IMG/VR virus record: IMGVR_UViG_3300029911_000149
Span: 1 to 23,153 of that record
DNA from: a virus
Length of the DNA: 23,153 nt
Direction: 5' to 3' (one strand)
This document shows, in pieces, positions 1,114 through 22,073 of this stretch; the stretch's first letter is position 1; each line of letters starts with the position of its first letter. The notes under the pieces were generated by a model. That model was not told the DNA's origin. It saw only the letters and a list, made by a program, of their open reading frames with translations, and ran no database searches. The position numbers were made by a program, and so were the translations under genes.

Positions 1114-1346
1114 CTAATCTCTCCGGGAACCAACGAGCCATCGAAGAAGAATTCCTTCTCCATGACCCTAACAATCCCCTCTCGATCCTTAAAAATAATC
1201 ATTGTGATATAATCGAAGGTACGGTCGGGGAGCAGCTTGGAGTAGATGCCCTCACCAATGATTTTATATGATTCATTCAGAACCAAATCCTTGTAATATT
1301 CACCAATATATGGTTGTCTCAAATAATGCGATTTCAAAATGTACAT
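1110..1346 (-). CDS. Small protein of unknown function
   Basis: 78 residues, not recognised. It begins inside the last codons of the downstream nrdJ ORF (ATG at 1346; nrdJ stop at 1334) and ends inside the TTG of the RlpA-like gene, so it is coupled at both ends. GGGAGG lies immediately before the ATG, closer than usual, so coupling to nrdJ termination probably drives initiation. The sequence is mixed alpha/beta, with aromatic residues and a DRTFDYITMIIF strand-like stretch. No membrane segment or known motif is seen. Confidence 0.65.
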   Translation of the reverse strand: MYILKSHYLRQPYIGEYYKDLVLNESYKIIGEGIYSKLLPDRTFDYITMIIFKDREGIVRVMEKEFFFDGSLVPGEIS

Positions 1347-1999
1347 CCTCCCGCGACACAGGCCAATTCCTGCGTATTTGTTGTTGAGTCTTCCTTCTCG
1401 AATTCAACCAGTGACGACCAGTCAACGTTCTGAGGCATCTTCGCCACCAGACTTTCATATTCTTCTGAATTACACTCGGTGAATGGTGCCTGCTGATAGA
1501 CAGTATCACCCTCTTCGGCAGGCAAGAACGAAACGCCGCTCATCCATTCAAAGTTTTTATAGACCCATGCGCCGACTTCCAACCATTCATCTTCCTTGAC
1601 GGAGATGGTGACGGAAGGCTTATGCTCACAATAATCCTTCTGATAGGCCAACCAAAGTTCAAGATGTTCGATGGCCGAGATTTCCTTACGCCCGATGGAG
1701 CCGGGAGCAGACTTGATTGGAAATTTAAAACAGACGACATTCTTTGGGTCCATCACATCAGTCTCCCATGGGAAGCCAGCATCCATCATGAACTTCGTCA
1801 GAGGGTCTTTCAGATCGTTTCTCACATACCGCACATAGGTTGGTGAGTAGGATGGATGGAAGCCTGATGAGGTTCCGTTGAAGGCTGATGACGTATTATG
1901 ACTAATACTTCCGTTTTCTAATTGATATGTGTGAGTATCGGCTACTTCAATATCTAATGTAAATTCTGGTTCTAACTTTTTTATTGTTGTTATTTTCAT
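1334..1999 (-). CDS. nrdJ: Split-intein C-half fused to C-terminal part of class II ribonucleotide reductase
   Basis: 221 residues. ATG at 1999 has AAGGA eight bases upstream, so this is a separately initiated ORF and not just a broken continuation. Residues 1-35 are a C-intein: block F (FTLDIEVADTHTYQLENG) and block G ending ISHN, with the His-Asn pair needed for Asn cyclisation. Residue 36 is Thr, the +1 nucleophile. Residues 36-221 continue the reductase exactly where the upstream ORF stops (KPEG|TSSAFNGTSSGFHPSYSPTYVRYVRN), and end in CVAGGC, the C-terminal redox Cys pair that passes electrons from a thioredoxin or glutaredoxin. It lacks the radical site, so it should be inactive unless trans-spliced to the product of 2087-4564. 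The intein part is AT-richer than the extein part. Confidence 0.92.
   Translation of the reverse strand: MKITTIKKLEPEFTLDIEVADTHTYQLENGSISHNTSSAFNGTSSGFHPSYSPTYVRYVRNDLKDPLTKFMMDAGFPWETDVMDPKNVVCFKFPIKSAPGSIGRKEISAIEHLELWLAYQKDYCEHKPSVTISVKEDEWLEVGAWVYKNFEWMSGVSFLPAEEGDTVYQQAPFTECNSEEYESLVAKMPQNVDWSSLVEFEKEDSTTNTQELACVAGGCTF
1895..1999 (-). other. Split intein, C-terminal half (IntC, 35 aa)
   Basis: This codes for residues 1-35 of the downstream nrdJ ORF. It holds intein blocks F and G, penultimate His, terminal Asn and a +1 Thr. Its length is close to those of known natural split inteins such as gp41-1 and NrdJ-1 (from memory, about 37-40 aa). Its partner is IntN at 2090-2410. Confidence 0.9.
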
Positions 2000-2058
2000 T
2001 TTAATCTTCCTTATAGATGAATTAATTTATGTATGGATTTAGAAGAAGTAAAGTAAGA

Positions 2059-2079
2059 CACCCATAATTCGTTTGGGTG
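2059..2079. other. Small hairpin between the two split-intein ORFs
   Basis: CACCCA (2059-2064) and TGGGTG (2074-2079) form a 6-bp stem with a 9-base loop, 8 bases past the IntN stop codon. No clean T-run follows, so it is not a convincing terminator. The whole 87-base gap (2000-2086) is very AT-rich and holds no other ORF; it contains the Shine-Dalgarno for the IntC ORF. Confidence 0.4.
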
Positions 2080-2086
2080 ACAATTT

Positions 2087-4564
2087 TTACCAAGACAAAA
2101 TTTCGTCATTTTCAGATAAATCTTTTGCCTTTTTCCATCCATCAACCGTTTTTAATTGGTGGTTAGCAGTCAACTTTACTATGGTGTTATCTTCCATAGT
2201 AATTTCATATACTTCGCTTAAACCATTCACATATAATTTAGTAATTTCCTTTTCTTCATTATTTTCATCATATACATACATTTTTCTGTCAGGAGTTATC
2301 CAATTACCACCATCCATTTCAAATATATCATAAGAAGTCAATTCTCCAAATATAGAGGCAATAGATTTATTTCCTTCCGTTGTTTTAATTTTTGTATCTA
2401 AAGATATACACCCTTCTGGCTTGATACAGGTGATGGCGACGGAGGCATTGATGCCGATTTCCTTGGCCACCTTCATATTTGTTCTGATGGCTTCCGCCTT
2501 CATAGAAGTTCGGAAATTTTCAAAATCAAATTGAGCATTTTCATCAAACTCATTATTCTCATAGGCCTGACCATTCGTCCAACCATTATCGAAGACGCCA
2601 TTGAGAGAGACACCCAGCAAACGCTCTTCCTCACAATTACGCTGCCACTTCTTTTTCAGATATTTAAAATCTGTGAAGCAAGACTGGAAGGTGCCAAGGA
2701 TCGTCGCCAACTTGATTTTATTCAGGATGGATTGCTTACTGTCATCCTCATAAATCTGGACTGATGTCAGGTTACAGAATTCATAGGGACGTAGAATGAT
2801 TTCCGCGCAATTATGGACAACAATAAAATCTGCAATAAAATTATGAGTGTCTTCCACACTAAGATCATAAACATCTGTAATCGGTCCTTCTTGAATAGAA
2901 ATTACATTTGCATATTGATGTAAATTGCTTTTTAAATCTTCTGGGATAGGAATAATTACCTTGGCCCCATGTCTAGAATTTTCGGGAGAAATAAATCCAA
3001 TATTATTTACACATTTATCATTATATCCCACAACCCCATGATTATTTGGCTGTTCTATGCCGGTTAAACGCGCATGATCTTCATGAGACAAACATTCTAA
3101 ATTATCAATATCATTATTATATGTATCTCCATCAATATGATGTACATCATATCCGACAGGAATTTTTCCATAGTAAGCCTCGAAAACTAATCTATGTTCC
3201 ATCACAATTTCTTGTTTTGTTTGTGTGGTTAATTTTACACCAGAATATGCTGCCCCCCTACGATTTCTGGTAAGATGAACTACTCTATCACCAATTTTTA
3301 TATTCTGTGCTTCCAGCCACCCACGACCTTCTACATAAATCTTATGGTCGGGTGTACAAATCAATTCTTTACAAGAAGAAATTGTAATTTTCAATGTATT
3401 AGCCTTTTTCTTACTAATCCAAGAAGCAGAAGAATTTCTAATACAAAGTTTACCATTTTTGTCCATAGAATAAACCATGGTTGGTTCCTTAATATCTTTA
3501 ATTTTTACTCTTCCATGGATCGTTTCGACCATACTATCGGGATGAAGACATGGATTTACCCCGAATTCATGGTTGGTGTCACGTTGCGGAGCATCCTCAA
3601 AGTTGATTGAACGATATTCGTTGGCGTTGTCAATCACGCGCCTGATGGCCTTGCGGGAGACGATCCCACGTTCCCCAGAATGAGACTCGTAAAGGCTCAA
3701 CCATTCCTTCATGAAGACGCCCATGTCGGGCTTCTCATTATATACAGCCGAGTTATTGGCGAGGCGACGATAAGGATTGGTCTTCCACCACGTCCCGCTC
3801 TTGGCGTCGCGCATACGGTCATCATTAAGGTCGGAGAGCGAGATAAGCGCCGAACGACGCACACCACCAACCACGACGATATCCGCCACCTTACAGGCTA
3901 TATCATGTGCCTCTAGCGTGGTGAGACGACGACCAGCCGCCTTCTTGAAGGTGTTGAGTGTGAAGCGTAGAAGTTCGACCAATGGGTCCGGTCCACTAGA
4001 ACGACCACCCATGGTCTTCAGACGAGCCCCGGCAGGCCGAAGCTTGCTCACGTCCCACTTGGGTATTTGACCAATCATCAACAGGCTCAAAAACTCGCGG
4101 TAGCCCTTGGACCAGCCAAGGCGAGAGTCATCAAAGATGATGGTTGTGTCTGACTCAAAAAAGGTGTCAGGCAACTCAGGAAGATGCTTGACGTTATCCG
4201 ACTCGACGGAATAGCCGACGCCTGTGCCTGACATGAGGATGGCCATTTCCTCATCGAACGACTTCATGTCATCCATCGGAAGGTAGGCGCAATTATACAG
4301 GGCGACATGGTTCTTCTTCGCGGCGGGACCAGCCGTCATCAGAGCCCTCATCGAAGGCATGATATCATGGTTCAGAACGGCATTGTATAATTCGTCATAG
4401 TAAGGAGCGATATCGTAGTTATGCTTCTCCTTCAAAGACTCCCCAATGAAATCAAAGTATCTTTTTACGGTCTCTGACCAAGTCTCTCGTCTATTCTTAC
4501 TATCAATGTATCGTGCATACCGGCTCGTAAAAATGAACTGTGAATATAGTGAATCCTTAAACAT
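2087..4564 (-). CDS. nrdJ: Class II ribonucleotide reductase, N-terminal and catalytic part, with cis-intein and split-intein N-half
   Basis: 825 residues in one ORF; ATG at 4564 with AAGGAG upstream, overlapping the previous gene by 8 bases. Residues 1-338 are the N-terminal extein: SMRALMTAGPA and LYNCAYLP, which carries the first redox Cys, in the pattern of monomeric adenosylcobalamin-dependent reductases. Residues 339-585 are an intein. Residues 586-718 resume with CAEIILRPYEFCNLTSV, carrying the active-site thiyl Cys and catalytic Glu, and run to TCIKPEG. Residues 719-825 are the N-half of a second, split intein, after which the ORF stops. With the second ORF (1334-1999) the mature enzyme would be 338+133+186, about 657 aa. 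The enzyme makes deoxynucleotides without oxygen and fits beside ThyX, primase and a phage glutaredoxin. The extein joins read as an uninterrupted family consensus, so function after splicing is likely. Confidence 0.94.
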   Translation of the reverse strand: MFKDSLYSQFIFTSRYARYIDSKNRRETWSETVKRYFDFIGESLKEKHNYDIAPYYDELYNAVLNHDIMPSMRALMTAGPAAKKNHVALYNCAYLPMDDMKSFDEEMAILMSGTGVGYSVESDNVKHLPELPDTFFESDTTIIFDDSRLGWSKGYREFLSLLMIGQIPKWDVSKLRPAGARLKTMGGRSSGPDPLVELLRFTLNTFKKAAGRRLTTLEAHDIACKVADIVVVGGVRRSALISLSDLNDDRMRDAKSGTWWKTNPYRRLANNSAVYNEKPDMGVFMKEWLSLYESHSGERGIVSRKAIRRVIDNANEYRSINFEDAPQRDTNHEFGVNPCLHPDSMVETIHGRVKIKDIKEPTMVYSMDKNGKLCIRNSSASWISKKKANTLKITISSCKELICTPDHKIYVEGRGWLEAQNIKIGDRVVHLTRNRRGAAYSGVKLTTQTKQEIVMEHRLVFEAYYGKIPVGYDVHHIDGDTYNNDIDNLECLSHEDHARLTGIEQPNNHGVVGYNDKCVNNIGFISPENSRHGAKVIIPIPEDLKSNLHQYANVISIQEGPITDVYDLSVEDTHNFIADFIVVHNCAEIILRPYEFCNLTSVQIYEDDSKQSILNKIKLATILGTFQSCFTDFKYLKKKWQRNCEEERLLGVSLNGVFDNGWTNGQAYENNEFDENAQFDFENFRTSMKAEAIRTNMKVAKEIGINASVAITCIKPEGCISLDTKIKTTEGNKSIASIFGELTSYDIFEMDGGNWITPDRKMYVYDENNEEKEITKLYVNGLSEVYEITMEDNTIVKLTANHQLKTVDGWKKAKDLSENDEILSW
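2090..2410 (-). other. Split intein, N-terminal half (IntN, 107 aa)
   Basis: Residues 719-825 of the upstream nrdJ ORF. Block A starts at the Cys (CISLDTKIKTTEGNKSI). Block B has the TxxH motif in KLTANHQLKTVDGWKKA and is followed by DLSENDEIL. The ORF then stops after SW. No endonuclease or block F/G follows in this frame. The first Cys directly follows KPEG of the extein. The base composition is sharply AT-rich against the extein: 2221-2280 has 13 G+C in 60 by hand count. Confidence 0.9.
2810..3550 (-). mobile_element. Cis-splicing intein with HNH homing endonuclease in nrdJ
   Basis: 247 residues, inserted between NP and CAE so that the reductase's own active-site Cys is the +1 residue. 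Block A begins CLHPDSMVETIHGRVKI; block B is CTPDHKIYVEGRGWLEA with TxxH (TPDH). Between the blocks, residues ~118-162 of the intein carry an HNH endonuclease: MEHRLVFEAYYG, then VHHIDGDTYNNDIDNLE, then SHEDHARL. Block F is ITDVYDLSVEDTHNFIADF, and block G ends VVHN. All splicing residues are present, so it should splice in cis, and the endonuclease looks intact. The DNA is AT-rich (2821-2880: 17 G+C in 60; extein 3841-3900: 34 in 60, by hand), which points to recent arrival by homing. Confidence 0.92.
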
Positions 4565-4907
4565 CTTGCTCCTTATTATTTTTATTTTTTATGAAATCTC
4601 TGTAATCGTCTTTTAAATCACCGTTGTCGTCATAACAACCATATCCATTGTTGACGTATTGATCATATGCTTCTAACACGGATACTGGTAACGGCGGTTC
4701 TTTTTCTTTTCTTGTGATTATTACTTCTTGTGTATAGAAGTTTCCATCATAATCACAAAGACATTCACCTATCACATAATGTTGAAAAACTACCTTCCAA
4801 ATACTAGACTTGATTTGTTGACGTGTATACTCATTATTAGGTTCGAAGAGATGATAAGAAACAGCCGCCTTTATATCTTCAATAAAATTTAGTGGTGTTT
4901 CACTCAT
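4557..4907 (-). CDS. Small protein of unknown function
   Basis: 116 residues, not recognised. ATG at 4907 overlaps the thyX stop (ATGA), and its own end overlaps nrdJ by 8 bases, so it is coupled between the two nucleotide-metabolism genes. The middle has strand-like segments (VFQHYVIGECLCDYDGNFYTQEVIITRK). The C-terminal third is acidic and Tyr/Asn-rich. No membrane segment. Position suggests expression with ThyX and NrdJ; a link to deoxynucleotide synthesis is only inference. Confidence 0.75.
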   Translation of the reverse strand: MSETPLNFIEDIKAAVSYHLFEPNNEYTRQQIKSSIWKVVFQHYVIGECLCDYDGNFYTQEVIITRKEKEPPLPVSVLEAYDQYVNNGYGCYDDNGDLKDDYRDFIKNKNNKEQDV

Positions 4908-5857
4908 AACGTTTGCTCGATAATCTTACGGTACTGAATCCATGGAAAGGCCAGATTACTTCTGATATAATCATCGTCTCCACCATATCCCGTAGGGTCT
5001 TCTGTCCATGTCGCCATCTTGGCCTGATGCTCGAAAGGACTTGCATGAATTGGATTGGCGTCACGAAGCAATTCAAACCGTTGAAATTCCTTTTCCAGAC
5101 TGGCGTTACCGTCGAAAGGAGCGTAAGAAACTCTGGCGCATCTGGCGACGGAAAGCTTCAGAAGTGGAATATATAATGCTTCTCCATTATGTTGATTATC
5201 ATTTTCCAAAATAGAAGTATAATCATCTACAGAAATATAAGGAAGATGCCACTCCGTTGGATAAAGAACTTGGTATACGCCTTTAGTTTTTTCTTGGATG
5301 ACCCGAGCGATTTCCTTGTCCATGACCTTGGCCAACTCGCGGATTTCCGGCATGGCGTCTTTATGAATACGGAGGGCGAAGTAGTTATCCCAATCGGTGG
5401 CGGTGATCAGCGTATCAATGTAGCCGAACCACTCCAGAGGACGATTGGCCCACTGTTTATGAACACCCTTGTATGACAACCACTTGGAGAAACGTTGTGT
5501 CTCCTTGGCGAAACGATTCCATTCCTTTTGAATTTCGTCCTGCTCTTCGATAGAAAACTTTTCAAAAGATTGCATTCCCGGCTGATTTTTCATGAAGTAG
5601 GGTGTATAAATTTCTTCTGCCAGTAAATTCTTTACAGGCACGGCCCGACTAGAACGAGCGTTGCGTGAAAATGCCCTATGCGTTATTACTTCAGAATGAA
5701 TGATGCGTGGATAGCGGATTTGGATTGTGATAAGCGGTTTACCACATGAAGGCCAAGAAGTAAGTGTTTTACCACCTAAAGAATCGAAAGTAAGTGTTTT
5801 ACCACATGAAGGCTCGGAAATAAGAATTACCTTAGCCTGAAAATCAGTCTCTTTCAA
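4904..5857 (-). CDS. thyX: FAD-dependent thymidylate synthase ThyX
   Basis: 317 residues. It methylates dUMP to dTMP using methylene-tetrahydrofolate, FAD and NADPH. The motif region reads THRAFSRNARSSRAVP (residues 59-74), matching the ThyX motif with its HR, S and N residues. Near the C-terminus, IHASPFEHQA is the usual H-x-S-P-F-E-H block. The start is TTG at 5857 with AAGGAG nine bases upstream; no earlier Met fits. Residues 15-44 are three tandem 10-residue repeats (EPSCGKTLTF, DSLGGKTLTS, WPSCGKPLIT) from a 30-base DNA repeat at the beta-strand leading into the active-site domain; normal family members have one copy. A NATAAATA motif (5881-5888) sits upstream. Confidence 0.95.
   Translation of the reverse strand: MKETDFQAKVILISEPSCGKTLTFDSLGGKTLTSWPSCGKPLITIQIRYPRIIHSEVITHRAFSRNARSSRAVPVKNLLAEEIYTPYFMKNQPGMQSFEKFSIEEQDEIQKEWNRFAKETQRFSKWLSYKGVHKQWANRPLEWFGYIDTLITATDWDNYFALRIHKDAMPEIRELAKVMDKEIARVIQEKTKGVYQVLYPTEWHLPYISVDDYTSILENDNQHNGEALYIPLLKLSVARCARVSYAPFDGNASLEKEFQRFELLRDANPIHASPFEHQAKMATWTEDPTGYGGDDDYIRSNLAFPWIQYRKIIEQTL
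5726..5815 (-). repeat. Three-copy 30-base in-frame tandem repeat in thyX
   Basis: Units 5786-5815, 5756-5785 and 5726-5755 each encode ten residues around a (S/G)-C/G-GK-x-L core. GGTAAAACACTTACTT is identical in the first two units; the third has diverged (GGTAAACCGCTTATCA). The first and third share CCTTCATGTGGTAAA. The unit length keeps the frame. Confidence 0.85.
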
Positions 5858-5880
5858 AAATAGCTCCTTGGTGTGTTGGT

Positions 5881-5888
5881 TATTTATC
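5881..5888 (-). promoter_or_regulatory. Late-type promoter motif GATAAATA
   Basis: On the minus strand this matches TATAAATA at seven of eight positions, 24 bases before the thyX TTG start and just after the primase stop. It could give thyX and nrdJ a second, late transcript in addition to readthrough from the primase promoter. Confidence 0.4.
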
Positions 5889-5898
5889 GATTTTGGGT

Positions 5899-6909
5899 TT
5901 ATGAGAAGTTTCGCGAGATAATCTCTGCTTGGGCTCTAAGTCCTTGGAAAGTATGAGAAGAAATGACTTCTTCGACATATTTTACGGACAGACCCCCTAA
6001 AATCATCGCATTGATATCTTTTTTTTGTATGGACCGTGGCCAGATGACCACTTTATATCCCGCCTTGATGGCCTTCTCGATTTTCTTCTTGGTTTCGGGA
6101 TGCCGAGGCTCATTATCATAACAAAAAACAAGGTTCTCTTTGTCGAAATTCTTCATGGATGATACCATGTCATTACCCAGCGTGGCAAGAGAATTTTCTA
6201 AAAATAGAGCATCTAATGGACCTTCTAAAACGATAGTGGTCTTGGTCTTATCCCATCGTTCTAGGCCGAAGACATGCGGCACATTCTCGTCAAGAATAAT
6301 ATTGATATACCGTTGACTGTTTTTTGGATCGAGGGATCGACCAGCAAAGCCGAAGAAGTCGCCACTCTCCGACAGGAAGGGGATCACCAGCCGCTCTTCG
6401 TCATGCTTCAATGCTCCCTCACTGAATTTATTAGGAATCAAATCATTTGTATATTTTCGAAAGTTGGGACACTTGAACAGCAACCCCAGACGATTCTCTG
6501 GAATCTTTCTCCCAAGCACATACTGTTTCATGGCGTCGTCGTCAGGAAGGTCTTTAATCGAGCAGAGAGAAGGCGTGACCAGCTTCGACTTGAATTCTGG
6601 TGCCTTGGTCTTATAATCCAAGACCTGTTCCTTCTTGGGTCTAAAAAGCTTCTCGCGGATATATTCCCTGAAGAGACTGGCGTCTTGATCGTTGAGAAAA
6701 TCATCGAAGCTGCGGGACTTGCCACACTTATGACACTTAAAAAATGTTGTTCCGTCATGTTCGAACACGTCACCACGAGCCCTACGCGGATTGCGCTTGG
6801 AGTCTCCACAATATGGACATGAGAAATTATAGAGATTGTCGGATTTCTTTTTGAAATTTCTAAGCTGGGCCGACACGAAGCTAAGATATTTAATTACTAA
6901 ATAATTCAT
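5899..6909 (-). CDS. DNA primase, gp61/DnaG-like
   Basis: 336 residues. The N-terminal zinc-binding domain has CPYC (31-34) and CHKC (59-62). The central/C-terminal Toprim domain has the catalytic Glu in IVLEGPLDALF (E229) and the acidic pair in VFCYDNEP (D265). This matches phage primases of the T4 gp61 type that make RNA primers with the gp41 helicase at the fork; it is about the same size as gp61. GGAGGG lies just before the ATG. It is the first gene after the promoter at 6931-6959 and so leads the primase-ThyX-NrdJ run. Confidence 0.92.
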   Translation of the reverse strand: MNYLVIKYLSFVSAQLRNFKKKSDNLYNFSCPYCGDSKRNPRRARGDVFEHDGTTFFKCHKCGKSRSFDDFLNDQDASLFREYIREKLFRPKKEQVLDYKTKAPEFKSKLVTPSLCSIKDLPDDDAMKQYVLGRKIPENRLGLLFKCPNFRKYTNDLIPNKFSEGALKHDEERLVIPFLSESGDFFGFAGRSLDPKNSQRYINIILDENVPHVFGLERWDKTKTTIVLEGPLDALFLENSLATLGNDMVSSMKNFDKENLVFCYDNEPRHPETKKKIEKAIKAGYKVVIWPRSIQKKDINAMILGGLSVKYVEEVISSHTFQGLRAQAEIISRNFS

Positions 6910-6930
6910 CTACCCTCCAATGGAAGGTGG

Positions 6931-6959
6931 AAGATATTCCCGTTTTAGAAGTTTGTCAA
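6931..6959 (-). promoter_or_regulatory. Sigma70-like promoter for the primase-thyX-nrdJ run
   Basis: Minus strand: -35 TTGACA (6954-6959), 17-base spacer, -10 TATCTT (6931-6936), and the primase ATG 22 bases beyond the -10. The spacer starts with AACTTCTAAAA, the complement of the TTAGAAGTT box also found at the two promoters near 14.8 and 15.3 kb. A host-sigma, early or middle promoter is inferred. Confidence 0.65.
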
Positions 6960-6961
6960 GA

Positions 6962-7366
6962 TCATTCCATGATCTGGTCGGAATGAATTTTTTGAAGGGA
7001 TATGTGCGGCACCTTGTTCAAGACGAGGACATTTATGAAGTTTAGATATACACTATATTTTACCAATGAGGCCGACAACACCCACATGGCCAAAACAACA
7101 TGGCTGGAATTATGAATATAATTAAAATAACCATCAATACATGTGACGACACCTAACATCATCTGACAGTAGAGACCCAACTGACCTACCTTCACCGTCC
7201 ATTTTCCTATAATATTACTTTCCGAAGAAGAAAATATATCCCACTTGGCACGTTGAATAATGCAGGCAAAGGTGATTCCAATGCCTGCTGTCATCTCGAT
7301 GATATTCCAAAAATCTATAGGTAAAATATAGATGAAGAATAAATTAAAGTTGTCTATGAAGTTCAT
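6962..7366 (-). CDS. Integral membrane protein of unknown function
   Basis: 134 residues with about three or four hydrophobic segments: NLFFIYILPIDFWNIIEMTAG, GQLGLYCQMMLGVVTCIDG, VVLAMWVLSASLVKYSVYL and FINVLVLN. ATG at 7366 overlaps the stop of the preceding membrane protein gene (ATGA), so the two are made together and may form a complex. No family was recognised. A lysis-accessory or superinfection role is possible but not shown. Confidence 0.7.
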   Translation of the reverse strand: MNFIDNFNLFFIYILPIDFWNIIEMTAGIGITFACIIQRAKWDIFSSSESNIIGKWTVKVGQLGLYCQMMLGVVTCIDGYFNYIHNSSHVVLAMWVLSASLVKYSVYLNFINVLVLNKVPHISLQKIHSDQIME

Positions 7367-13835: not shown

Positions 13836-14259
13836 ACAAACTCCCCTCGTCTTCGTTAAAATAAATGTCATCTTCGTCATCACCCTGCGTATCTATAAAG
13901 ATATCTCCAAAGTGGAGGAAGCCGTTGTTGTTGAAACATTCGAAGTTCCGATCAAACTCAATCATGGTATGACCAGAAGGAACGTCGGTACCTTCCCGAA
14001 AAGGAATTATGCCTATCAAACCGGAGTCAACAGGATAGGAATTACCCATGTCGTCTTCAAATTTACCATCGCCATGGGTAGTATGAAAGACCACAACTAT
14101 TGTATTAACATCCAGAAGAAATCCCATCCCCTCGTCGTCAACAAAATCATTTGATTCGATAAAGCGTAGCCAGTCGTCTTGATCCTTGTCTGAAAAGAAA
14201 TATGCAGGGTCTCCTATAGTATATTTACCAGCAGGCAAATTATAAATCTGCAACGTCAT
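13822..14259 (-). CDS. Acidic conserved phage protein of unknown function
   Basis: 145 residues. ATG at 14259 with AAAGGAG. The N-terminal GKYTIGDPAYF, then VFHTTHGDGKFEDDMGNSYPVDSGLIGIIP, matches a widespread phage/bacterial family in which a GDP motif is followed by a T-x-x-GDG-x-(Y/F) strand and YPVD-x-G. The C-terminal 25 residues are almost all Asp/Glu. The family's function is unknown to me. It lies between the tRNA-like RNA and the micro-ORF cascade in the same operon. Confidence 0.8.
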   Translation of the reverse strand: MTLQIYNLPAGKYTIGDPAYFFSDKDQDDWLRFIESNDFVDDEGMGFLLDVNTIVVVFHTTHGDGKFEDDMGNSYPVDSGLIGIIPFREGTDVPSGHTMIEFDRNFECFNNNGFLHFGDIFIDTQGDDEDDIYFNEDEGSLYDDE

Positions 14260-14288
14260 AACTCCTTTGAGATGTAAGATGAAAAAAT

Positions 14289-14379
14289 TGGTCGGCCCTC
14301 TAGGTTACGCTCCTAGTCAAGAACACCCATCTGATGCTAAAGGGTTTATAAATCCCTCCCGCGTCTAACGCCAGAGCCG
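14289..14379 (-). tRNA. tRNA-Leu-like RNA with altered loops (degenerate or tRNA mimic)
   Basis: 91 bases ending in encoded ACCA. Acceptor: CGGCTCT pairs with AGGGCCG over all 7 positions (one G-U). The T-stem CTAGG/CCTAG is perfect. A long variable arm makes it type II. GGCG...TAGACGC copies the D-arm of tRNA-Leu, but the D-loop part with the conserved GG is missing. The T-loop is AGCGTAA, not TTCRANY. The anticodon arm AGGGA-TTTATAA-ACCCT has a 31-39 A-A mismatch and reads UAU, while a Leu(UAA) ancestor would read TTTAAAA-TCCCT. The lost D-loop GG and T-loop TTC would normally pair at the tRNA elbow. It may be a pseudogene or a repurposed structured RNA; a normal Leu decoder is unlikely. 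Confidence 0.55.
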
Positions 14380-14386
14380 GAACCTT

Positions 14387-14394
14387 TATTTATT
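14387..14394 (-). promoter_or_regulatory. Late-type promoter motif AATAAATA
   Basis: Minus-strand ATAATAAATAAAGG, overlapping the stop of the 113-aa gene and just before the tRNA-like RNA. It may give separate late transcription of the RNA, or be chance in an AT-rich gap. Confidence 0.35.
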
Positions 14395-14734
14395 ATAGAT
14401 TTTCTTCGATGTAATCCGCAATCCTATTGAAAGACCAGTTATGAAGATCATTCGCCTTCATGAGATACTCCTGATCATCCCAATCTAGGCCGACCTTTTT
14501 AAGATGCTCATCATCCAACTCGAAAGTATATCGATTTTTAGTTGGAATATAATGCGCCTCATCACGAGAATCACTGAAGAAATCCTTGTGAATACATTCA
14601 CCCAAAACACCTAGGCAACAGTACCGTGGTCCTGCACCCTTATCCCTGCTTCTCTTCTTCAGGGCTTCACGCCCCTGCTTGTAATCACCGGAACGAAGAG
14701 CCTCCAACCACTTAGTCTTATATTCCTCAATCAT
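14393..14734 (-). CDS. Conserved phage protein of unknown function
   Basis: 113 residues. ATG at 14734 with AAAGGAT. It matches a common phage/bacterial small protein pattern: W-x-EALRSG-YKQG near the N-terminus, YCCLGVLGE in the middle, then LMKANDLHNWSFNRIADYIEENL at the end. The Cys pair (residues 39-40) is part of that consensus. Function unknown. It is the first gene behind the promoter at 14784-14812 and so leads the operon ending with glutaredoxin. Confidence 0.85.
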   Translation of the reverse strand: MIEEYKTKWLEALRSGDYKQGREALKKRSRDKGAGPRYCCLGVLGECIHKDFFSDSRDEAHYIPTKNRYTFELDDEHLKKVGLDWDDQEYLMKANDLHNWSFNRIADYIEENL

Positions 14735-15365: not shown

Positions 15366-15965
15366 ATGTATAAGTTTGAGCAACTTGCGAAAACGGCCAA
15401 GCTGAAAGGCTTCGACCTGAAGAAGGATGCGGAGGAAGCGCGGGAGTGGTTCCGACAGAAGGCCTATGGCACGAAGTATGTCAATCCAAAAGACTTTCAA
15501 AAAAATGCCACCGCCTTCCAGAATATCGAACAAATCAGCCCAAATTCTATCGGGAAACTGTACTTCTTCGCCTATGATCCAAAGCATAAGCTGACGCTAG
15601 AATACTATGACGTATTTCCACTTATCTTTCCAATTGAATTTTATAGTGATGGATTTCTCGGCATCAACCTCCATTACCTTCCTCCTTTCATGAGAGCGAA
15701 GTTGATGGATGCTCTTTATAAGACCATGAATAATGACAAGTATGATAAGACTTCCAAGCTGGTCATCACCTACCAGATTCTCAAGGCGGCGGGTCAGTTT
15801 AAATTATTCAAACCTTGTGTTCATCGATATCTCTTCGCCCACATCAGAAGTCCCTTCCAATATGTTCCACCCACGGCTTGGGACTACGCCATCCTGTTGC
15901 CATTAAATAGATTTAAAAAGAAGTCTGCCGAGTATGTGTGGGCTGCTAGTTTATTAAAAACTTAA
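15366..15965 (+). CDS. Conserved T4-like phage protein next to baseplate genes
   Basis: 199 residues. ATG at 15366 with AAGAGGA. It matches a family conserved in marine T4-like phages, with core KLYFFAYDPKHKLTLEYYDVFPLIFPIEF, then GFLGINLHYLPPFMRAKLMDAL, FKPCVHRYLFAHIRS and a final W-x-x-x-LLPLNRF. No enzymatic motif. It sits nine bases before the tube/gp54-like gene. Position and late-type motif suggest a virion or assembly role; the exact T4 counterpart is not clear to me. Confidence 0.8.
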   Translation: MYKFEQLAKTAKLKGFDLKKDAEEAREWFRQKAYGTKYVNPKDFQKNATAFQNIEQISPNSIGKLYFFAYDPKHKLTLEYYDVFPLIFPIEFYSDGFLGINLHYLPPFMRAKLMDALYKTMNNDKYDKTSKLVITYQILKAAGQFKLFKPCVHRYLFAHIRSPFQYVPPTAWDYAILLPLNRFKKKSAEYVWAASLLKT

Positions 15966-15974
15966 GGGAACGAT

Positions 15975-16595
15975 ATGGCATTTAATATCAACGATTTCAT
16001 AACAAATATACAGCAGTACGGGGTATCCAGTAGCTCTAAATTTGATGTGAATATCACCCTACCAAACATATTCAGTAATGCCAAGAATGGTGACATTCTA
16101 CAGTCGGAGTTGCCCCAACTTCTGGCTTTCAGAGCCGAGAGTGTGAATCTCCCCGTCGCCGCGCTTCTTTCGAACGAAACGGCGCGTTATGGCCTTGGAC
16201 CATCGGTGAAGACGCCATATAACGCCGTCTTTGGCGACATCAAGATAACCTTCATCGCGGATAAGAGTGGCACTATTTACACATTCTTTTATTCATGGAT
16301 TAATTCGATTTATAACTTTTCTGAGACCAGCACCACATCAGGAACCTCGACGGGCGGCAGCACCACCAGCATCACGCTTCCTAGATATACGACGATGTAT
16401 GACGACGATATTGTCGCACCTAATATCAGTATAAATATATATGACAACCTCGGAAACATCATCCAGACGGTCTTCGTGACAAGAGCGAAGCCCATCATGT
16501 TCTCGGCGTCACCCCTAATATGGGAACAGACCAACAACTTATTTAAAATAACTGTAGGATTCACCTTCAAAGAGTGGTCTTTGGCGGTTTCATAA
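15975..16595 (+). CDS. Tail-tube-fold baseplate protein (gp54/gp48/gp19-like)
   Basis: 206 residues. ATG at 15975 with AGGGA. The N-terminal FITNIQQYGVSSSSKFDVNITLP, then FRAESVNLPVA, GPSVKTPYNAVFGDIKITFIAD, and a C-terminal FKITVGFTFKEWSLA, follow the tail-tube fold shared by gp19 (tube) and the baseplate tube-initiator proteins gp48/gp54. A Ser/Thr/Gly-rich loop near residues 118-135 is likely a surface insertion. Together with the gp26-like gene behind it, a baseplate tube-cap/initiator role is more likely than the main tube protein, but this cannot be settled here. Confidence 0.7.
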   Translation: MAFNINDFITNIQQYGVSSSSKFDVNITLPNIFSNAKNGDILQSELPQLLAFRAESVNLPVAALLSNETARYGLGPSVKTPYNAVFGDIKITFIADKSGTIYTFFYSWINSIYNFSETSTTSGTSTGGSTTSITLPRYTTMYDDDIVAPNISINIYDNLGNIIQTVFVTRAKPIMFSASPLIWEQTNNLFKITVGFTFKEWSLAVS

Positions 16596-16604
16596 GGAAA
16601 TGAA

Positions 16605-17309
16605 ATGATACCTAAAATTGTATATCCAATATTTTTTATTGACCAGCCTTCTACTAAAAAGAAACTAGCCTTCCGCCGATACCTCGTCAAGGAGGAAAAG
16701 ATTCTCCTTCTCGCCAAGGAGAGTAAGGACATCAACGATATTCTCAGGGCTATCAAGGACGTGGTGAATGTATGCTGTCAGGAAGAAGACTTCAACGTCA
16801 ACGAGATTCCACTCTTCGATCTGGAATTTATATTTCTAAGGCTTCGCGCCGCCTCGGTCAACAATATGGAAAATTTCGTAGTCAAAGATGTTGAAGATGG
16901 AAAGGAATATCCTCTTTCAATTAATTTTAATGATGTTGAGGTTCAATTCGATGAAAACGCCCCCGACAAGAATATCAAGGTGGACGATAAGACGGTTATG
17001 GTGATGCAATATCCGATGGCCTCGATCTACGACAACAAAGACTTCAAGGAACGTCTGGCAGCGGAAGGCCTGTTCGAATTAGTTGTAAATTGTGTTGATA
17101 AGGTGTTCAGTAACGACGAATATATCGAGATGTCACACTTGGAACTGCGGGATTTTATTGACAGCCTCGACGTAAAGACCTTTCATAAAATTAAGGACTT
17201 CCTACTATCAACGCCATCAATTCGCCACTCTCTGAAATATATAAACAGTAATGGCAACGAAAAAATTCTGACCTTTAACTCACTTATGGATTTTTTTTTG
17301 TATCTCTAA
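16605..17309 (+). CDS. Baseplate hub assembly protein, gp26-like
   Basis: 234 residues. ATG at 16605 with AAGGAAA, nine bases after the previous stop. It begins IPKIVYPIFFID, with a charged N-terminal domain and AIKDVVNVCCQ, FLRLRAAS and then a beta-rich part; this matches the T4 gp26 family of baseplate proteins. The ORF ends just after nine consecutive T (17291-17299): zero frame gives FFLYL-stop, and the -1 frame is open for 62 more codons. Two products are therefore expected: a 234-aa short form and a ~293-aa long form. This parallels the lambda G/GT tail chaperones that coat the tape measure; here the link is inference from arrangement and the gp51-like tail. Confidence 0.85.
   Translation: MIPKIVYPIFFIDQPSTKKKLAFRRYLVKEEKILLLAKESKDINDILRAIKDVVNVCCQEEDFNVNEIPLFDLEFIFLRLRAASVNNMENFVVKDVEDGKEYPLSINFNDVEVQFDENAPDKNIKVDDKTVMVMQYPMASIYDNKDFKERLAAEGLFELVVNCVDKVFSNDEYIEMSHLELRDFIDSLDVKTFHKIKDFLLSTPSIRHSLKYINSNGNEKILTFNSLMDFFLYL
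17291..17300 (+). promoter_or_regulatory. Slippery T9 tract for -1 ribosomal frameshift
   Basis: GAT TTT TTT TTG in the zero frame contains T-TTT-TTT and T-TTT-TTG heptamers, both of the X-XXY-YYZ type. The zero-frame stop follows three codons later. The -1 frame opens at 17279, just after a TAA, so no upstream start exists for it. No clear downstream pseudoknot was identified by eye. Confidence 0.75.
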
Positions 17310-17485
17310 TCCATAATACTCTAAGCGCGTATTATTCGACAAACTTTGCCCTGCGGCACCATCACGGTTATTCTCTGGAAGAAATTGAAAATGAAATACC
17401 ATTTGAAAGGACTTTAACCCTTCAAATGGTTTCCAAGACTATTCAACAGGCTGATGAAGCAAATAGACTCAATCAGTCTATGTAA
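17297..17485 (+). CDS. gp51-like C-terminal extension reached by -1 frameshift
   Basis: 62 codons from the slip site to TAA at 17483. There is no ATG before the last 17 codons and no Shine-Dalgarno, so independent initiation is unlikely. It reads ALRHHHGYSLEEIENEIPFER, a HHH-x-YS-x-x-E-(I/L)-E-x-x-(I/L)PFER motif that I recognise from small gp51-like proteins following gp26 in marine T4-like phages, then an amphipathic helix. The gene ends exactly where the convergent minus-strand gene ends (stop codons adjoin). Confidence 0.8.
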   Translation, partial: FVSLIHNTLSAYYSTNFALRHHHGYSLEEIENEIPFERTLTLQMVSKTIQQADEANRLNQSM

Positions 17486-17680
17486 TCACTTCTTCTTGGT
17501 GAGAATCTTCTTGATCCAAGAAGTCTTGTCTCCACCTTCACGCTCCTGACCCGTCTTGTCGTCTGGTCTTATCGAGGCATGAATTGCGTTTGACTTCTTT
17601 TCGGGCTTCTTGTCGTTGCCAATATCCTTATCTGATTCGTGGATACTGGCGTGGATACAATTTTTTGTATTGTCTGACAT
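17486..17680 (-). CDS. Small repeat-containing protein of unknown function
   Basis: 64 residues, hydrophilic and Lys/Asp-rich. ATG at 17680 with AAGGAGA. It has two copies of an IHASI-x-x-x-DK motif (residues ~9-18 and ~32-42) separated by a Lys-rich linker, and ends WIKKILTKKK, an amphipathic basic helix. Its stop directly adjoins the stop of the frameshift product on the other strand. Not recognised. Confidence 0.65.
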   Translation of the reverse strand: MSDNTKNCIHASIHESDKDIGNDKKPEKKSNAIHASIRPDDKTGQEREGGDKTSWIKKILTKKK

Positions 17681-17713
17681 TTTTATTCTCCTTTTTTGTG
17701 AGTTCTTAATATA

Positions 17714-18331
17714 TCATTCATATGTCGGTAAGTCAACATTAATCGCCTGATTAATGTCACAACATAAAAATCTGGTGCCGTCGATGACTTCATTTCGAAA
17801 ACTATGCCAATGACCGAAAATCCACAATTTAGGTTGGTGAATTTCGAGCATCGCCTGAAGCGCCTTTGACGTTCGGTTTGGATAATGGTGTTTGCTCGTC
17901 TCCACCGGAAACAATTTAAAATACATGTTTTCAGGGCAGTCGTGCGTCACCATCACTTGAGGCTTCAGTTCCTCATAACGAGAAATCATCCCATAAAGTT
18001 CCTGATAGGACAGTTCCTCATCTCCCCACCATGAGACACCGGGTGTGCGATTTTGCCAGTCGATGGAGAAGGCACCACCCATCAGGAACATCCGATGCTT
18101 GGGATCGTAGGTGCCATCAGGAATCCATCGCGACGAATTGCGACACGCATGGAGCGAGTCATGATTACCACGGATGAATTTGTGATTCACGGAAATATCC
18201 TGCGGATCGGGAATCGGCACAAAACCAGCGCCAAAATCCCCCACCTGAATCGACTCATCACAATCCTGAATAAGCTGCTCCCACGCCTTGGTATCGCCGT
18301 GGATATCACCAATAAACCTAATTTTTGACAT
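17714..18331 (-). CDS. Calcineurin-like metallophosphoesterase
   Basis: 205 residues. Metal-binding motifs in order: GDIHG (8-12), GDFG (31-34), GNHD (55-58), VTHDCP and GHWH near the C-terminus. These are the complete ligand set of the two-metal phosphoesterase family, so it should be active. The substrate cannot be read from sequence; phage members include protein phosphatases, nucleases and nucleotide hydrolases. A WGD(E) stretch after GVSW is shared with small bacterial and phage phosphoesterases. ATG at 18331, with AAGGA seven bases upstream, ten bases after the stop of the preceding gene. Confidence 0.9.
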   Translation of the reverse strand: MSKIRFIGDIHGDTKAWEQLIQDCDESIQVGDFGAGFVPIPDPQDISVNHKFIRGNHDSLHACRNSSRWIPDGTYDPKHRMFLMGGAFSIDWQNRTPGVSWWGDEELSYQELYGMISRYEELKPQVMVTHDCPENMYFKLFPVETSKHHYPNRTSKALQAMLEIHQPKLWIFGHWHSFRNEVIDGTRFLCCDINQAINVDLPTYE

Positions 18332-18341
18332 AAATAAATCC

Positions 18342-21300
18342 TTACTGTGGACCGTGGCCTATACCACCGTAATTTGTGAACAGTTTTTTAATTCGTTCAT
18401 CGGGTGGAGACACAGGACCGGCCTCATGCTTCTCCTTTTTGATATCCTTGGCACCATCTTTATCATGAGATTTTAGTTCTGTAAAGAGTTTTTGCATGGC
18501 GTCTTGAGGTTTCTCATTAGGTTTAGAGGCATCCTTGTTGATAGCCGTCTGATTAATCTGGGCTGCGTAGTTTATAAGGTCTGGCTTTTGAATCAATGAA
18601 TCTAGGTCGGTGTCTTCTGACTTGTAGAAGTTAGAATCCATCAATTTACTTCCATCATAACCGGCGTCACTTCGACCTTTCATGTTGTCCATTCTACTTC
18701 CATCATAACCGGCGTCTTTACGACCTCGCATGTTGTCCAGACTTCCATCATAAAAGGCGTCATCACGGCCTTTCATGTTGTCCATAGAATTAGGTCTTCC
18801 TCTTCCCAGCATCTTAGGATCGATTAACTTATGTTGCCATCTCTCGGCATTGGCCTTTATTTCAATAGCTTCTTTTTCGTCATCGTCTCTTGGCTGAAGA
18901 CCACCCGCTCTATTCTTCATTTCCATAATTCTGTTATTATCAAACATAGAATCATTACGACCCATCATGCCTGCATCACTATCCCGAGAATTGAAACCGC
19001 CTAATCTTCCATGCATGTTAAAACGAGGATCATGATTTTCTTTCCATCTATTGGCATTGGCCTTTATTTCGGCAGCTTCTCTCTGATCGTCTGTTGGTTG
19101 AATACCCATACGGCCCATCATGCCTGCATCACCGGCCATAGGATTGGAACCACCAAATCTTCCATGCATGTCAGCATGAAGATCATGACCACGATTTCTC
19201 ATCTGACCAAATCGTTTGTCACCATCAAATCCTGAGTCGTCACGGCCCATCATGCCGTTGACACCATCAGTATGTTGTTCAAGAACTTTACCTACAGAGT
19301 AGGCAATATTTTGAGCGGCAGCAACGATGGAAGGATGTGAAGCTTCGGCAGGAGTTTGATCATAATGCTCAGGGTGTTCCTGTCGATATAATGGATTTTG
19401 ATTTCCATTTAATGGATTACCCTGACTATCTCTTATTGGAGAATAATTCTTGCCTGCGGATTCACCAAACCCATCCCTAGGAAGCCAATGAAGTCTTTCG
19501 TTTACTCCCATTTTTTCTCTTATATTATGAAATTGTTCAACAATACCCATTTCTCTTGCACCTGTAGCAGGATTAATTCTATATCCCGCAATAGTTCCTG
19601 CATGGTCTAAATGAGCATGGCGTGTCCCCCCTCCCCCACCAGCATATTTGTCGGATTCCGACCCATCTCTATTTAAATGTGTGGAAACAGGTGTTCCAAT
19701 AGGCAAATCCTTATCGAAGGCATTTTCACCTTTTTTAAATGTCCATTGATGAACATTTGATCCGTCTTGGCCCGACCCTTTTCTGACGCCAACACTTGCC
19801 ATCGCCAAAGAAACACACTCATCATCCGTTATTAATCCTTTATCACGCATGGCCTTTACGTGGTCTAAGACCTGATCCGATGTCTTTAAATCGTTCACCC
19901 CACCACCAGAACCGCCACCAGATTCGTTTCCAATACTTCCCCCGCCCTTAAATCCGGGAGTACCCATACCCTGATCATAGTAATCTTGGGCTCTCTGCAT
20001 ATGTTTTTCAAATGCAGGAACACCGGGACCACCTTCTCTCATTCCTTCAAAATGTGTTTCCCAAGAATGTGCCGAACCTCTGGCGGTAGATTCATTCTTT
20101 ATATGAGGAATTACATGTTTATACGTTGTTTCTAATTCATGATCCATAAATCCTTCATTGGCTTCATAACTGGAAGGATTTAACTTATGTTCCTTTGACC
20201 ATTCAAGAAATGCAGTTCTACGTGGTCCTGTCCACTGTGCGTATCCATATCCCGATCCAGTTCCAGAATGACCAATTTCTTGTAGAGTTTTAAAATTACC
20301 ACTTTCATAACCCATCACACCAACGGGACCAGTCGCCTGTTCTCTGGTCAGACCATATTTTTCCATCAGATGCTTTGTGAGTTTATCACCAATAGCGGCA
20401 CCAGCACCACCAATATGACCACCACCACCAGAACCGCCGCCCGAACCTTGTGTTATTGTGTGATCACCACCACCAGAACCGCCGCCCGAACCTTGTGTTA
20501 TTGTGTGATCACCACCAAGCTTTCTTCCAAGAATATCAGCCGCGCCTTGGTTTCTCTGAGCATCGACGGTCTGGCCGAATGTTGGTTGTGTTTGATCAGG
20601 AGACACAGAATCGACGCCTCCACCGACAGGAAGGGCTACTTGGCCGGTACTTCTCGTGGCGGCAATCTGCTGTTGTGGTGTCTGTATAATATCACCACTC
20701 TGAAGCGCCTTGATCTGGCTTTCCTTCTGGGCCTTGTCCTTACTCAGATCATCAATTTCTTTTTGAATCTCTTCCTTACGTTTATCGACGGCAGGATTAT
20801 GCTTTCCGCTCTTGTCCATCTCATCAAGCTTCTGAACAATCTTCATGAGTGCTTCACGCTGTATTGCAAGATTAGAGTCGTCTTCCTTCACACCGGCCTG
20901 TAATTTCTGCGACTGAAGACTATTATAATAATCCTTTAGGTCTTTTGGACTGTCATTTTCATGACCTCCACTCAAAGGAGTATGATTTTCTCCTTTGTTT
21001 CCCCAATTAAGAGCAGCAGCCAAACCTCCGCCCATCAGACCAGCAGCCAAAACTCCGCCCATCAGACCTTCACTCAAAAATCCCTTAAGACCTCCTAGAA
21101 GTTTACTTCCCCATTGAACGGCCTTGATTTCCATCCCATCCTTGGCAAGGTCTCCAAAACCCCCGCCGCCACCTGAACCTCCACCGCCACCGCCACCGCC
21201 AGAACCTCCACCACCCAAAACTAATCTTTCAAGCAGAGAGTTAGTTTTTCTGTTTTCGGTCAGCATGGAGTCAAGAAGAACACCATGGGTCACATTATGC

Positions 21301-21572
21301 TGATTTATTTGTTCAAAACCAAGTTCAAGCGTATTCACAACGTCTTCGTCGTCTGTACTATTACTACTTTTCTTCCTACGTTCCTGACGAACTTCATCCT
21401 TCAGTTCTTTGATTTCTTCGTCGGCCTTCTTCTTGTAGCTAGAAACCAAATCTTGCAGCGCCATGATCTGTGGAAACGCCGCATGTGTGAGATATCTGGC
21501 GCTATCGGCCAATAAAGTTCTGAAGGTACTTTCTGCTGCTTGTTCTTGTTCTTGTTCTTGTTCTTGTGCCAT
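18342..21572 (-). CDS. Large virion-type protein with lysozyme-like and NlpC/P60-like wall-degrading domains
   Basis: 1076 residues. (EQ)n start, coiled-coil at ~40-70, Gly-rich linker 119-139, a hydrophobic Gly/Ala segment 158-190 and a second coiled-coil 235-290. A tail-lysozyme-type domain (~395-535) has the likely catalytic Glu in GYESGNF (E423) and YGYAQWTGPRR. After another Gly linker, residues ~565-700 have DDECVSLA (C586), W-x-x-G, GTPVSTHL and HAHLDHAG, the layout of a Cys peptidase/amidase of the BPSL0067/NlpC-P60 type. The last third is repeats: two long MHGR...AEIKAN(A)xRW units and three NM(K/R)GR-x-DA-x-YDGS units. It could be a tail-tip enzyme that opens the cell wall during DNA entry, like T4 gp5 in purpose. 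A late-type motif precedes it. Confidence 0.85.
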   Translation of the reverse strand: MAQEQEQEQEQAAESTFRTLLADSARYLTHAAFPQIMALQDLVSSYKKKADEEIKELKDEVRQERRKKSSNSTDDEDVVNTLELGFEQINQHNVTHGVLLDSMLTENRKTNSLLERLVLGGGGSGGGGGGGGSGGGGGFGDLAKDGMEIKAVQWGSKLLGGLKGFLSEGLMGGVLAAGLMGGGLAAALNWGNKGENHTPLSGGHENDSPKDLKDYYNSLQSQKLQAGVKEDDSNLAIQREALMKIVQKLDEMDKSGKHNPAVDKRKEEIQKEIDDLSKDKAQKESQIKALQSGDIIQTPQQQIAATRSTGQVALPVGGGVDSVSPDQTQPTFGQTVDAQRNQGAADILGRKLGGDHTITQGSGGGSGGGDHTITQGSGGGSGGGGHIGGAGAAIGDKLTKHLMEKYGLTREQATGPVGVMGYESGNFKTLQEIGHSGTGSGYGYAQWTGPRRTAFLEWSKEHKLNPSSYEANEGFMDHELETTYKHVIPHIKNESTARGSAHSWETHFEGMREGGPGVPAFEKHMQRAQDYYDQGMGTPGFKGGGSIGNESGGGSGGGVNDLKTSDQVLDHVKAMRDKGLITDDECVSLAMASVGVRKGSGQDGSNVHQWTFKKGENAFDKDLPIGTPVSTHLNRDGSESDKYAGGGGGTRHAHLDHAGTIAGYRINPATGAREMGIVEQFHNIREKMGVNERLHWLPRDGFGESAGKNYSPIRDSQGNPLNGNQNPLYRQEHPEHYDQTPAEASHPSIVAAAQNIAYSVGKVLEQHTDGVNGMMGRDDSGFDGDKRFGQMRNRGHDLHADMHGRFGGSNPMAGDAGMMGRMGIQPTDDQREAAEIKANANRWKENHDPRFNMHGRLGGFNSRDSDAGMMGRNDSMFDNNRIMEMKNRAGGLQPRDDDEKEAIEIKANAERWQHKLIDPKMLGRGRPNSMDNMKGRDDAFYDGSLDNMRGRKDAGYDGSRMDNMKGRSDAGYDGSKLMDSNFYKSEDTDLDSLIQKPDLINYAAQINQTAINKDASKPNEKPQDAMQKLFTELKSHDKDGAKDIKKEKHEAGPVSPPDERIKKLFTNYGGIGHGPQ
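18648..18783 (-). repeat. Three tandem ~48-base repeats near the 3' end of the large gene
   Basis: Copies begin at plus-strand ACTTCCATCATAA at 18648, 18696 and 18741 (periods 48 and 45). They encode NMKGRDDAFYDGS, NMRGRKDAGYDGS and NMKGRSDAGYDGS. Differences are mostly single substitutions and one codon. Confidence 0.85.
20421..20510 (-). repeat. Exact 45-base tandem duplication
   Basis: 20421-20465 and 20466-20510 are identical by eye and encode two copies of GDHTITQGSGGGSGG in the linker before the lysozyme-like domain. Identity without a single difference implies a recent duplication. Confidence 0.9.
21539..21568 (-). repeat. Hexanucleotide microsatellite at the start of the large gene
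   Basis: Four perfect CTTGTT units and a fifth imperfect one encode the (EQ) repeat of residues 3-11. The six-base unit changes length without shifting frame. Confidence 0.85.
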
Positions 21573-21587
21573 GGAATCCCTGAAAAA

Positions 21588-21595
21588 AATAAATA
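21588..21595 (+). promoter_or_regulatory. Late-type promoter motif AATAAATA for the holin-like gene
   Basis: Plus-strand AATAAATATCTG, 37 bases before the ATG at 21633, in a 60-base divergent region shared with the large minus-strand gene. Confidence 0.5.
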
Positions 21596-21609
21596 TCTGA
21601 TACTTTTAA

Positions 21610-21617
21610 TATTTATT
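21610..21617 (-). promoter_or_regulatory. Late-type promoter motif AATAAATA for the large wall-enzyme gene
   Basis: Minus-strand TGAATAAATATT, 37 bases before the ATG at 21572. Together with 21588-21595 it forms a face-to-face pair with overlapping transcripts. Confidence 0.5.
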
Positions 21618-21632
21618 CAAGGACCAAAGGCC

Positions 21633-22070: not shown

Positions 22071-22073
22071 TAA

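Follow-up and report, generated by a model that had tools for sequence, protein, structure and literature searches.

Architecture of the split reductase gene

The virus record IMGVR_UViG_3300029911_000149 (the window, that is, the whole stretch of 23,153 bases that was analysed) carries a class II ribonucleotide reductase gene, nrdJ, in two open reading frames (ORFs) on the minus strand: an N-half ORF at 4564-2087 (825 amino acids, aa) and a C-half ORF at 1999-1334 (221 aa), with 87 nucleotides (nt) from the stop of the first to the start of the second. The two ORFs share a complete split intein at KPEG|T, made of an N-terminal half (IntN, 107 aa) and a C-terminal half (IntC, 35 aa). A first-pass annotation made from the letters alone had claimed this arrangement, and its coordinates, both lengths, the HN end of IntC, the +1 Thr and the 87-base gap were all confirmed. 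The element is very probably an eroded fractured gene, whose intein halves would splice in trans to give one reductase. The features of the locus were as follows.

3551-4564 (minus strand): N-extein, first part, 338 aa, class II RTPR-type ribonucleotide reductase NrdJ (TIGR02505 and phrog_367 matches)
2810-3550 (minus strand): contiguous (cis) intein, 247 aa, at the active-site motif NP|C, with an HNH_3 endonuclease domain (PF14890, PF13392)
2411-2809 (minus strand): N-extein, second part, 133 aa, C-terminal end CIKPEG
2090-2410 (minus strand): IntN, 107 aa, with Cys1 and block B TANH (PF14890), followed by the stop TAA at 2089-2087
2014-2088 (minus strand): GIY-YIG homing endonuclease scar, 25 codons KNCHPNELWVSYFTSSKSIHKLIHL, then TAA, filling most of the 87-nt gap at 2000-2086 (57.5 bits to the gap ORF of relative L168)
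2006-2012 (minus strand): Shine-Dalgarno-like AAGGAAG of the second ORF, overlapping the scar stop (read from the sequence)
1895-1999 (minus strand): IntC, 35 aa, ending SHN (PF14890)
1337-1894 (minus strand): C-extein, 186 aa, with +1 Thr (TIGR02505, phrog_367), followed by the stop at 1336-1334

The second ORF opens with IntC, MKITTIKKLEPEFTLDIEVADTHTYQLENGSISHN, and continues with TSSAFNGTSSG, the next residues of the reductase. Its own Shine-Dalgarno, claimed earlier, was found as AAGGAAG 6 nt upstream of the ATG, and AAGGAAG also precedes IntC in the relative L084. The residues and blocks of a naturally split class 1 intein were present on the two polypeptides, and the Pfam family Intein_splicing (PF14890) matched 2281-1895, covering part of IntN, the gap and IntC (38.6 bits, cut-off 35.8).

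Judged from profile matches, the reductase appears to be of the adenosylcobalamin-dependent RTPR type: scored separately, the two ORFs reached 176.2 and 64.4 bits with TIGR02505 (below the 340.05 cut-off, which is set for the whole protein) and 387 and 133.8 bits with phrog_367. The sole Protein Data Bank (PDB) match of an uninterrupted relative's reductase fragment was RTPR 1l1l, a chain presumably from Lactobacillus leichmannii. The split-intein junction aligned to KPSG|T in 1l1l, at about residues 551-552 as counted from the alignment. Without either intein, the computed reductase is 657 aa. One reductase should need one cis-splicing event (the HNH_3 intein at NP|C, which the first-pass annotation left undescribed) and one trans-splicing event (KPEG|T).

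An endonuclease scar in the gap

The +1 frame of the gap reads KNCHPNELWVSYFTSSKSIHKLIHL followed by a stop and matched residues 23-47 of the L168 gap protein at 68% over 25 aa. The score of 57.5 bits compares with a maximum of 24.0 in 100 shuffles (also 24.0 in 40). When the endonuclease proteins from relatives' gaps were searched over the whole window (tblastn), two places were matched, the HNH region of the cis intein and the 87-nt gap, the scar with an E-value of 1.2e-8. This similarity marks the gap as a fossil that preserves part of a SegE-like GIY-YIG homing endonuclease. The claim that the locus is a fractured gene stood in part: the host gene is indeed in two ORFs at the intein, but the free-standing endonuclease gene is absent and the 25-codon scar is what is left. 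As its sequence reads, the element is classed here with the eroded descendants of fractured genes and not with complete ones.

Scars from other endonuclease parts were found at L181 (63.4 bits, maximum of 40 shuffles 25.2) and L171 (52.4 bits, 24.8), and the L009 gap held one of 36.3 bits (27.8 maximum of 40 shuffles). None of the four shortest gaps (L084, 17 nt; L004, 24 nt; L161, 37 nt; L184, 52 nt) gave a scar scoring above shuffles; recognisable scars were present in four of the eight members of the short-gap class. L181 belongs to the window's clade of five (support 98/98), yet retains a different piece of the endonuclease than the window does; the endonuclease was therefore probably lost more than once in this clade, unless a single long remnant was cut back differently in the two.

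Fusion of the two ORFs by ribosomal bypass or readthrough of the 87 nt has a negligible probability. The predicted RNA fold of the gap was slightly better than that of shuffles (z -1.64; 13 of 200 shuffles did as well), which lends this account little, whereas IntC begins at a start codon of its own behind a Shine-Dalgarno-like site, an endonuclease scar accounts for the gap, and the halves of L084 lie in different frames across a 17-nt gap.

Relatives at the same insertion site

Relatives were gathered by profile scans with IntN plus ten N-extein residues and, separately, with IntC. The alignment held 26 inteins (the window and 25 loci), of which 25 lie in reductase genes; L195, in a recombinase-like gene, is in the 26 only. 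Omitted were repeats of contigs already in the set (L158, L159, L174, L175, L180, L182, L183, L186, L188, L189, L191), near-identical copies (L166, L167, L197, also L008), incomplete loci (L176, L177, L185) and loci outside nrdJ (L198-L200, L202); L085, L086, L178 and L179 were also unused, and the window's twin (L007/L083, below) was not counted separately. The comparison of 25 reductase inteins at this site, window included, supplied the check for same-site inteins in related phages that had been proposed.

Three of the 25 are contiguous (L160, L169, L173) and 22 are split. The split ones comprise 14 with a gap ORF of at least 140 aa (endonuclease-like, some decayed) and eight without any ORF of 60 aa; the position of the split is constant and the gap runs from 17 to 1308 nt. 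The initial split relatives were L004, L084, L008 and L009 (three distinct), with gaps, stop included, of 27 nt, 20 nt and 81 nt (the last for L008 and L009). In an earlier set of 80 loci, 75 were empty at the site, four were split (L007 among them) and one was unmeasurable. The +1 residue of the reductase inteins is Thr in 20 and Ser in five, and the junction is shifted two residues on in L170, L171 and L172 (after KPSGNA, KPSGSA and KPSGNS, respectively). The C-exteins of ten more diverged loci were checked: phrog_367 matched nine of the nine scanned and TIGR02505 nine of ten, far under its whole-protein cut-off (L201 counts for TIGR02505 only, L172 for phrog_367 only). One scan of bacterial genome contigs returned two loci, a weak intein-like match off KPxG in a metagenome-assembled genome of Cloacimonadota and another that looks non-intein.

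A single clade of the contiguous inteins was rejected by the approximately unbiased test (p 6e-57; three versus 23 rows, the group having been chosen after the tree was viewed). Contiguous L169 adjoins split L168 in the tree at 87/80, below the starred level, and both L160 and L169 keep a Met where the IntC of their relatives starts. In this unrooted tree, re-fusion of the halves into a contiguous intein is possible; splitting at an existing Met would look alike.

Of the first ten loci with translated gaps, eight (seven distinct) contain an ORF. GIY-YIG-like gap ORFs occur in L164, L168, L170, L172 and L187, the SegE_GIY-YIG match being above the Pfam cut-off in L164, L170 and L172 and the matches of L168 and L187 below it; in L165 the ORF is decayed, frameshifted and with most of the GIY-YIG domain gone. 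HNH-like gap ORFs occur in L162, L163, L190 and L194, with L162 above and L163 and L190 below the cut-off. Homing endonuclease was also the PHROGs annotation of the L163, L164, L168, L170 and L172 gap ORFs. The gap ORFs of L192, L193, L196 and L201 are related to one another (blastp) and matched REase_MTES_1575 with 15.8, 23, 34.7 and 18.9 bits, all below the cut-off of 38.2; we read them as Vsr-like, the fold of the fractured-gene endonuclease. A C-terminal region is common to the GIY-YIG and HNH gap proteins (blastp), as if nuclease domains had been swapped on one shared part with a probable DNA-binding role.

Conservation, selection and predicted fold

Cys1, the block B His, the penultimate His and the terminal Asn are present in 26 of 26 aligned inteins, and the block B Thr and block F His in 25 of 26. 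Between the window and L084, its nearest intein relative, the ratio of nonsynonymous to synonymous substitution rates (dN/dS) was 0.059 for IntN (107 codons) and 0.089 for IntC (35 codons); on these ratios, both intein halves are under purifying selection. The proportion of synonymous differences (pS) in the same pair was 0.56 and 0.45 in the intein and 0.85 and 0.79 (saturated) in the exteins, and amino-acid identity was 89% in the intein and 67-70% in the exteins. The lower pS and higher identity of the intein show that it is under selection and was transferred between the two nrdJ lineages after their divergence. Against L181, identity was 53% and 74% in the intein halves and 33% and 34% in the exteins; L004 gave a weaker picture (IntN 67%, IntC 77%; exteins 68% and 77%).

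The contiguous relative L160 was modelled as an intein (three-row alignment, predicted local distance difference test score 78.4), and its best PDB matches were the DnaB intein 1mi8 (E 6.9e-7) and gp41-1 6qaz (E 2.1e-6). The conserved residues, the selection and the L160 model together point to trans-splicing by the window halves. Genes in pieces need not splice: the two polypeptides could assemble non-covalently into an active reductase, with the intein halves as dead tails, as is reported for NrdA of Aeromonas phage Aeh1, whose nrdA, broken by mobE with no self-splicing intron, is functional (PMC3653736). This account is quite improbable here, the splicing residues being conserved in 26 inteins and the halves being under purifying selection where dead tails would be expected to decay.

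Near-identical occupied and empty genomes

Two further records are almost identical to the window: that of L003 (G001, 107,554 base pairs, bp), empty at KPEG|T, and that of L007/L083 (G002, 47,851 bp), occupied. Exact-junction scans of the viral collection returned these two records besides the window. L007/L083 carries the 516-bp insert letter for letter, with 19 of 23,153 positions differing from the window. The split is thus not an assembly error, because a second, slightly different record has the identical insert. An assembly error, or a recently broken contiguous intein that would make the reductase a pseudogene, is accordingly given a very small probability: the three contiguous inteins among the 25 at this site are in its favour, whereas the insert in an independent record and the purifying selection speak against it, as do the diverged relatives, whose split position is identical but whose gaps differ in length and frame.

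Where they overlap, L003 and the window are 99.9% identical, and L003 lacks exactly 1895-2410 (516 bases). G001 and G002 share about 46.7 kb, over which the 516-bp insert is the only large difference besides the end of the shorter record (about 0.2 kb diverged in G002; its last 0.45 kb lies beyond the reach of G001). Despite its empty KPEG|T, L003 has the NP|C intein (741-bp insert). That intein was considered as the cause of the KPEG|T polymorphism and rejected, being present in both L003 and the window, while L004, L084 and L008 are split without an NP|C insert.

Eleven differences separate the window from L003 in 7,894 aligned bases, and four of these, synonymous third-base single-nucleotide polymorphisms (SNPs), touch the junction (GGT to GGG; ACC TCG TCG to ACG TCA TCA). 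Four SNPs within 14 bp have a binomial probability of 3e-9, for a stretch picked after the data were seen. They bound one further feature:

1886-2411 (minus strand): apparent conversion tract, the 516-bp insert (1895-2410) plus synonymous SNPs at 2411, 1892, 1889 and 1886

The pattern is apparently the trace expected of gene conversion with a diverged partner. The L084 junction reads GGA|ACG TCA TCT and shares the window base at two of the three differing C-side sites and that of L003 at none, a weak pointer to gain on the side of the window. The allele difference may instead reflect a loss, in which L003 recombined with an empty allele and so shed the intein, the window's lineage having gained nothing. 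We regard such a loss as a possible, though not the favoured, history: the SNPs common to the window and L083 against L003 carry no direction, and the third bases shared with L084 speak weakly against it.

Search for a mobilising endonuclease

Whole records were searched with PF13392, PF01541 (E 1e-3) and PF01844. PF13392 was found only in the cis intein of the window, G001 and G002. At this threshold PF01541 (GIY-YIG) gave no match in the window, G001, G002 or G004 (the record of L084), one weak match in G003 and two in G005; PF01844 gave none in seven records. A weak GIY-like place was seen at G004 14250-14558.

A 228-aa GIY-YIG-like homing endonuclease ORF with NUMOD3 motifs, missed by the Pfam searches, lies at 2862-3545 (minus strand) of G001 (there also L091). 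It was first flagged by a weak tblastn hit (E 0.022), and its match to the homing endonuclease family phrog_314, to which four gap ORFs also belong, scored 72.3 bits. It is far from nrdJ, which lies at about 66.8 kb, and falls in a stretch of G001 that neither the window nor G002 overlaps. In L084, a free-standing HNH/endonuclease VII-like ORF (3348-3902), for which 53 relatives were found, lies 56 bp downstream of the split nrdJ. Each of these two genes would at most be a candidate for cutting KPEG|T.

Proposed mechanism

The reductase would be translated as two polypeptides. IntN and IntC would come together as a folded HINT intein, whose trans-splicing would link the Gly of KPEG to Thr, and the NP|C intein of the first polypeptide would splice in cis, so that the combined product would be one reductase of 657 aa. 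In the ancestor, the order would have been IntN, a free-standing GIY-YIG homing endonuclease gene and IntC; deletion of the endonuclease gene down to 25 codons would have left the present gap, and the 516-bp element would now stand alongside empty alleles in almost identical phages. The splicing halves would be retained because their loss would kill the reductase gene. This order of events is a proposed history.

Several results weigh against this account. The Pfam match of the IntC half alone was weak in L084 (E 0.08), and the second ORF of the window had none at 0.01. The dN/dS values against L004 were higher (0.32 and 0.33). Neither the window nor the 47,851-bp record yielded an intact endonuclease closely resembling the gap type, and the G001 ORF at 2862-3545 probably has another target, because its own KPEG|T site is empty and uncut. 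Codon usage (log10 P -2.47 for L003, -3.01 for the window flank) leans slightly toward L003 and leaves the native allele undecided; uninformative on direction, it also gives room to the loss of the intein from L003. Only six of the 23 inner branches of the tree are starred, and with so few strong branches the gains and losses of the endonuclease could not be ordered.

The element, without an endonuclease of its own, may move through an endonuclease acting in trans or through ordinary recombination. Tentatively, and with less confidence than doubt, we propose that such a split intein still spreads in a phage population, by trans or collaborative homing with endonucleases that co-infecting phages supply, and that the KPxG|T lineage cycles between split with endonuclease, scar and, after re-fusion, contiguous mini-intein, L160 and L169 having the IntC start Met in frame.

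Comparison with known systems

Fractured genes with split inteins were reportedly described by Dassa et al. in 2009. The NrdJ-1 intein is naturally split. Fractured genes, in which an endonuclease stands between split-intein halves, are known, two nrdJ cases among them (PMC3653736). The window resembles them in its phage-type reductase gene cut by split-intein halves and in same-site relatives that carry a free-standing endonuclease gene, but its endonuclease has shrunk to a scar of 25 codons, and there is an empty allele that is otherwise almost identical. AceL NrdHF (PMC7891396) likewise lies on a phage-like contig; its reductase gene is broken by a split intein of 98 + 48 aa, whose halves flank a GIY-YIG ORF. 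The AceL intein is of class 3, with Ala1, and lies in a class Ib beta subunit, whereas the window has Cys1, class II nrdJ and a lost GIY-YIG gene. NrdJ-1 (PMC13123727) is also a split intein of an NrdJ reductase, but its native junctions, NPC|SEI, are at the active site with +1 Ser, unlike KPEG|T with +1 Thr, which bears out the earlier view that this site is distinct from that of the active-site intein.

In phage T4, MobE mobilises the nrdB intron, whose endonuclease is defunct, in trans (PMC2988022). This system and collaborative homing share with the window a splicing element with a defunct endonuclease and homing that converts flanks too; they differ in concerning introns, not inteins, and for the window homing in trans is a candidate process only. 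The literature found, which did not cover the founding fractured-gene study, contained neither a split intein at KPxG|T nor an endonuclease scar between intein halves. Split-intein fractured genes are thus already known; the near-isogenic empty twin together with the eroded endonuclease is apparently new, not having been seen described in those sources.

Other inteins and neighbouring genes

Close to the split nrdJ of L084, a gp41/DnaB-like helicase with a contiguous LAGLIDADG intein was seen (4928-7366). L009 encodes a ThyX with an intein (77-1708), and its nrdJ (3289-5919) combines the split intein with a LAGLIDADG intein at NPC. By eye, related split-intein halves were recognised in recombinase-like genes at L195 (3018-4105) and L198-L200, with SGLxYAA after the junction, and in a gene resembling class I NrdA at L202; L195 has an ORF in its split-intein gap. 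Among cultured phages, weak IntN relatives were a Campylobacter phage reductase and a helicase of Salmonella phage S16 (31-35% identity among the matches listed, 20 of 35 records); the S16-type match touches the helicase gene and an adjoining hypothetical gene.

In the window itself, 15366-23096 holds T4-like genes (DNA end protector, tail tube, baseplate hub and single-strand binding protein), on account of which the phage is probably in part a T4-like myovirus. An imperfect 80-nt repeat (81%) lies at 18956-19188 within a 1076-aa ORF.

Significance

Arguments on the origin and persistence of split inteins have drawn mostly on single examples. Here, a series is seen at one site: empty, split with an endonuclease ORF (of three unrelated-looking types), decaying, with a readable scar, without a scar, and contiguous. 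The 25 reductase inteins at this loop are candidate trans-splicing tools, and with near-isogenic occupied and empty genomes, the gain, cost and mobility of a split intein become directly testable.

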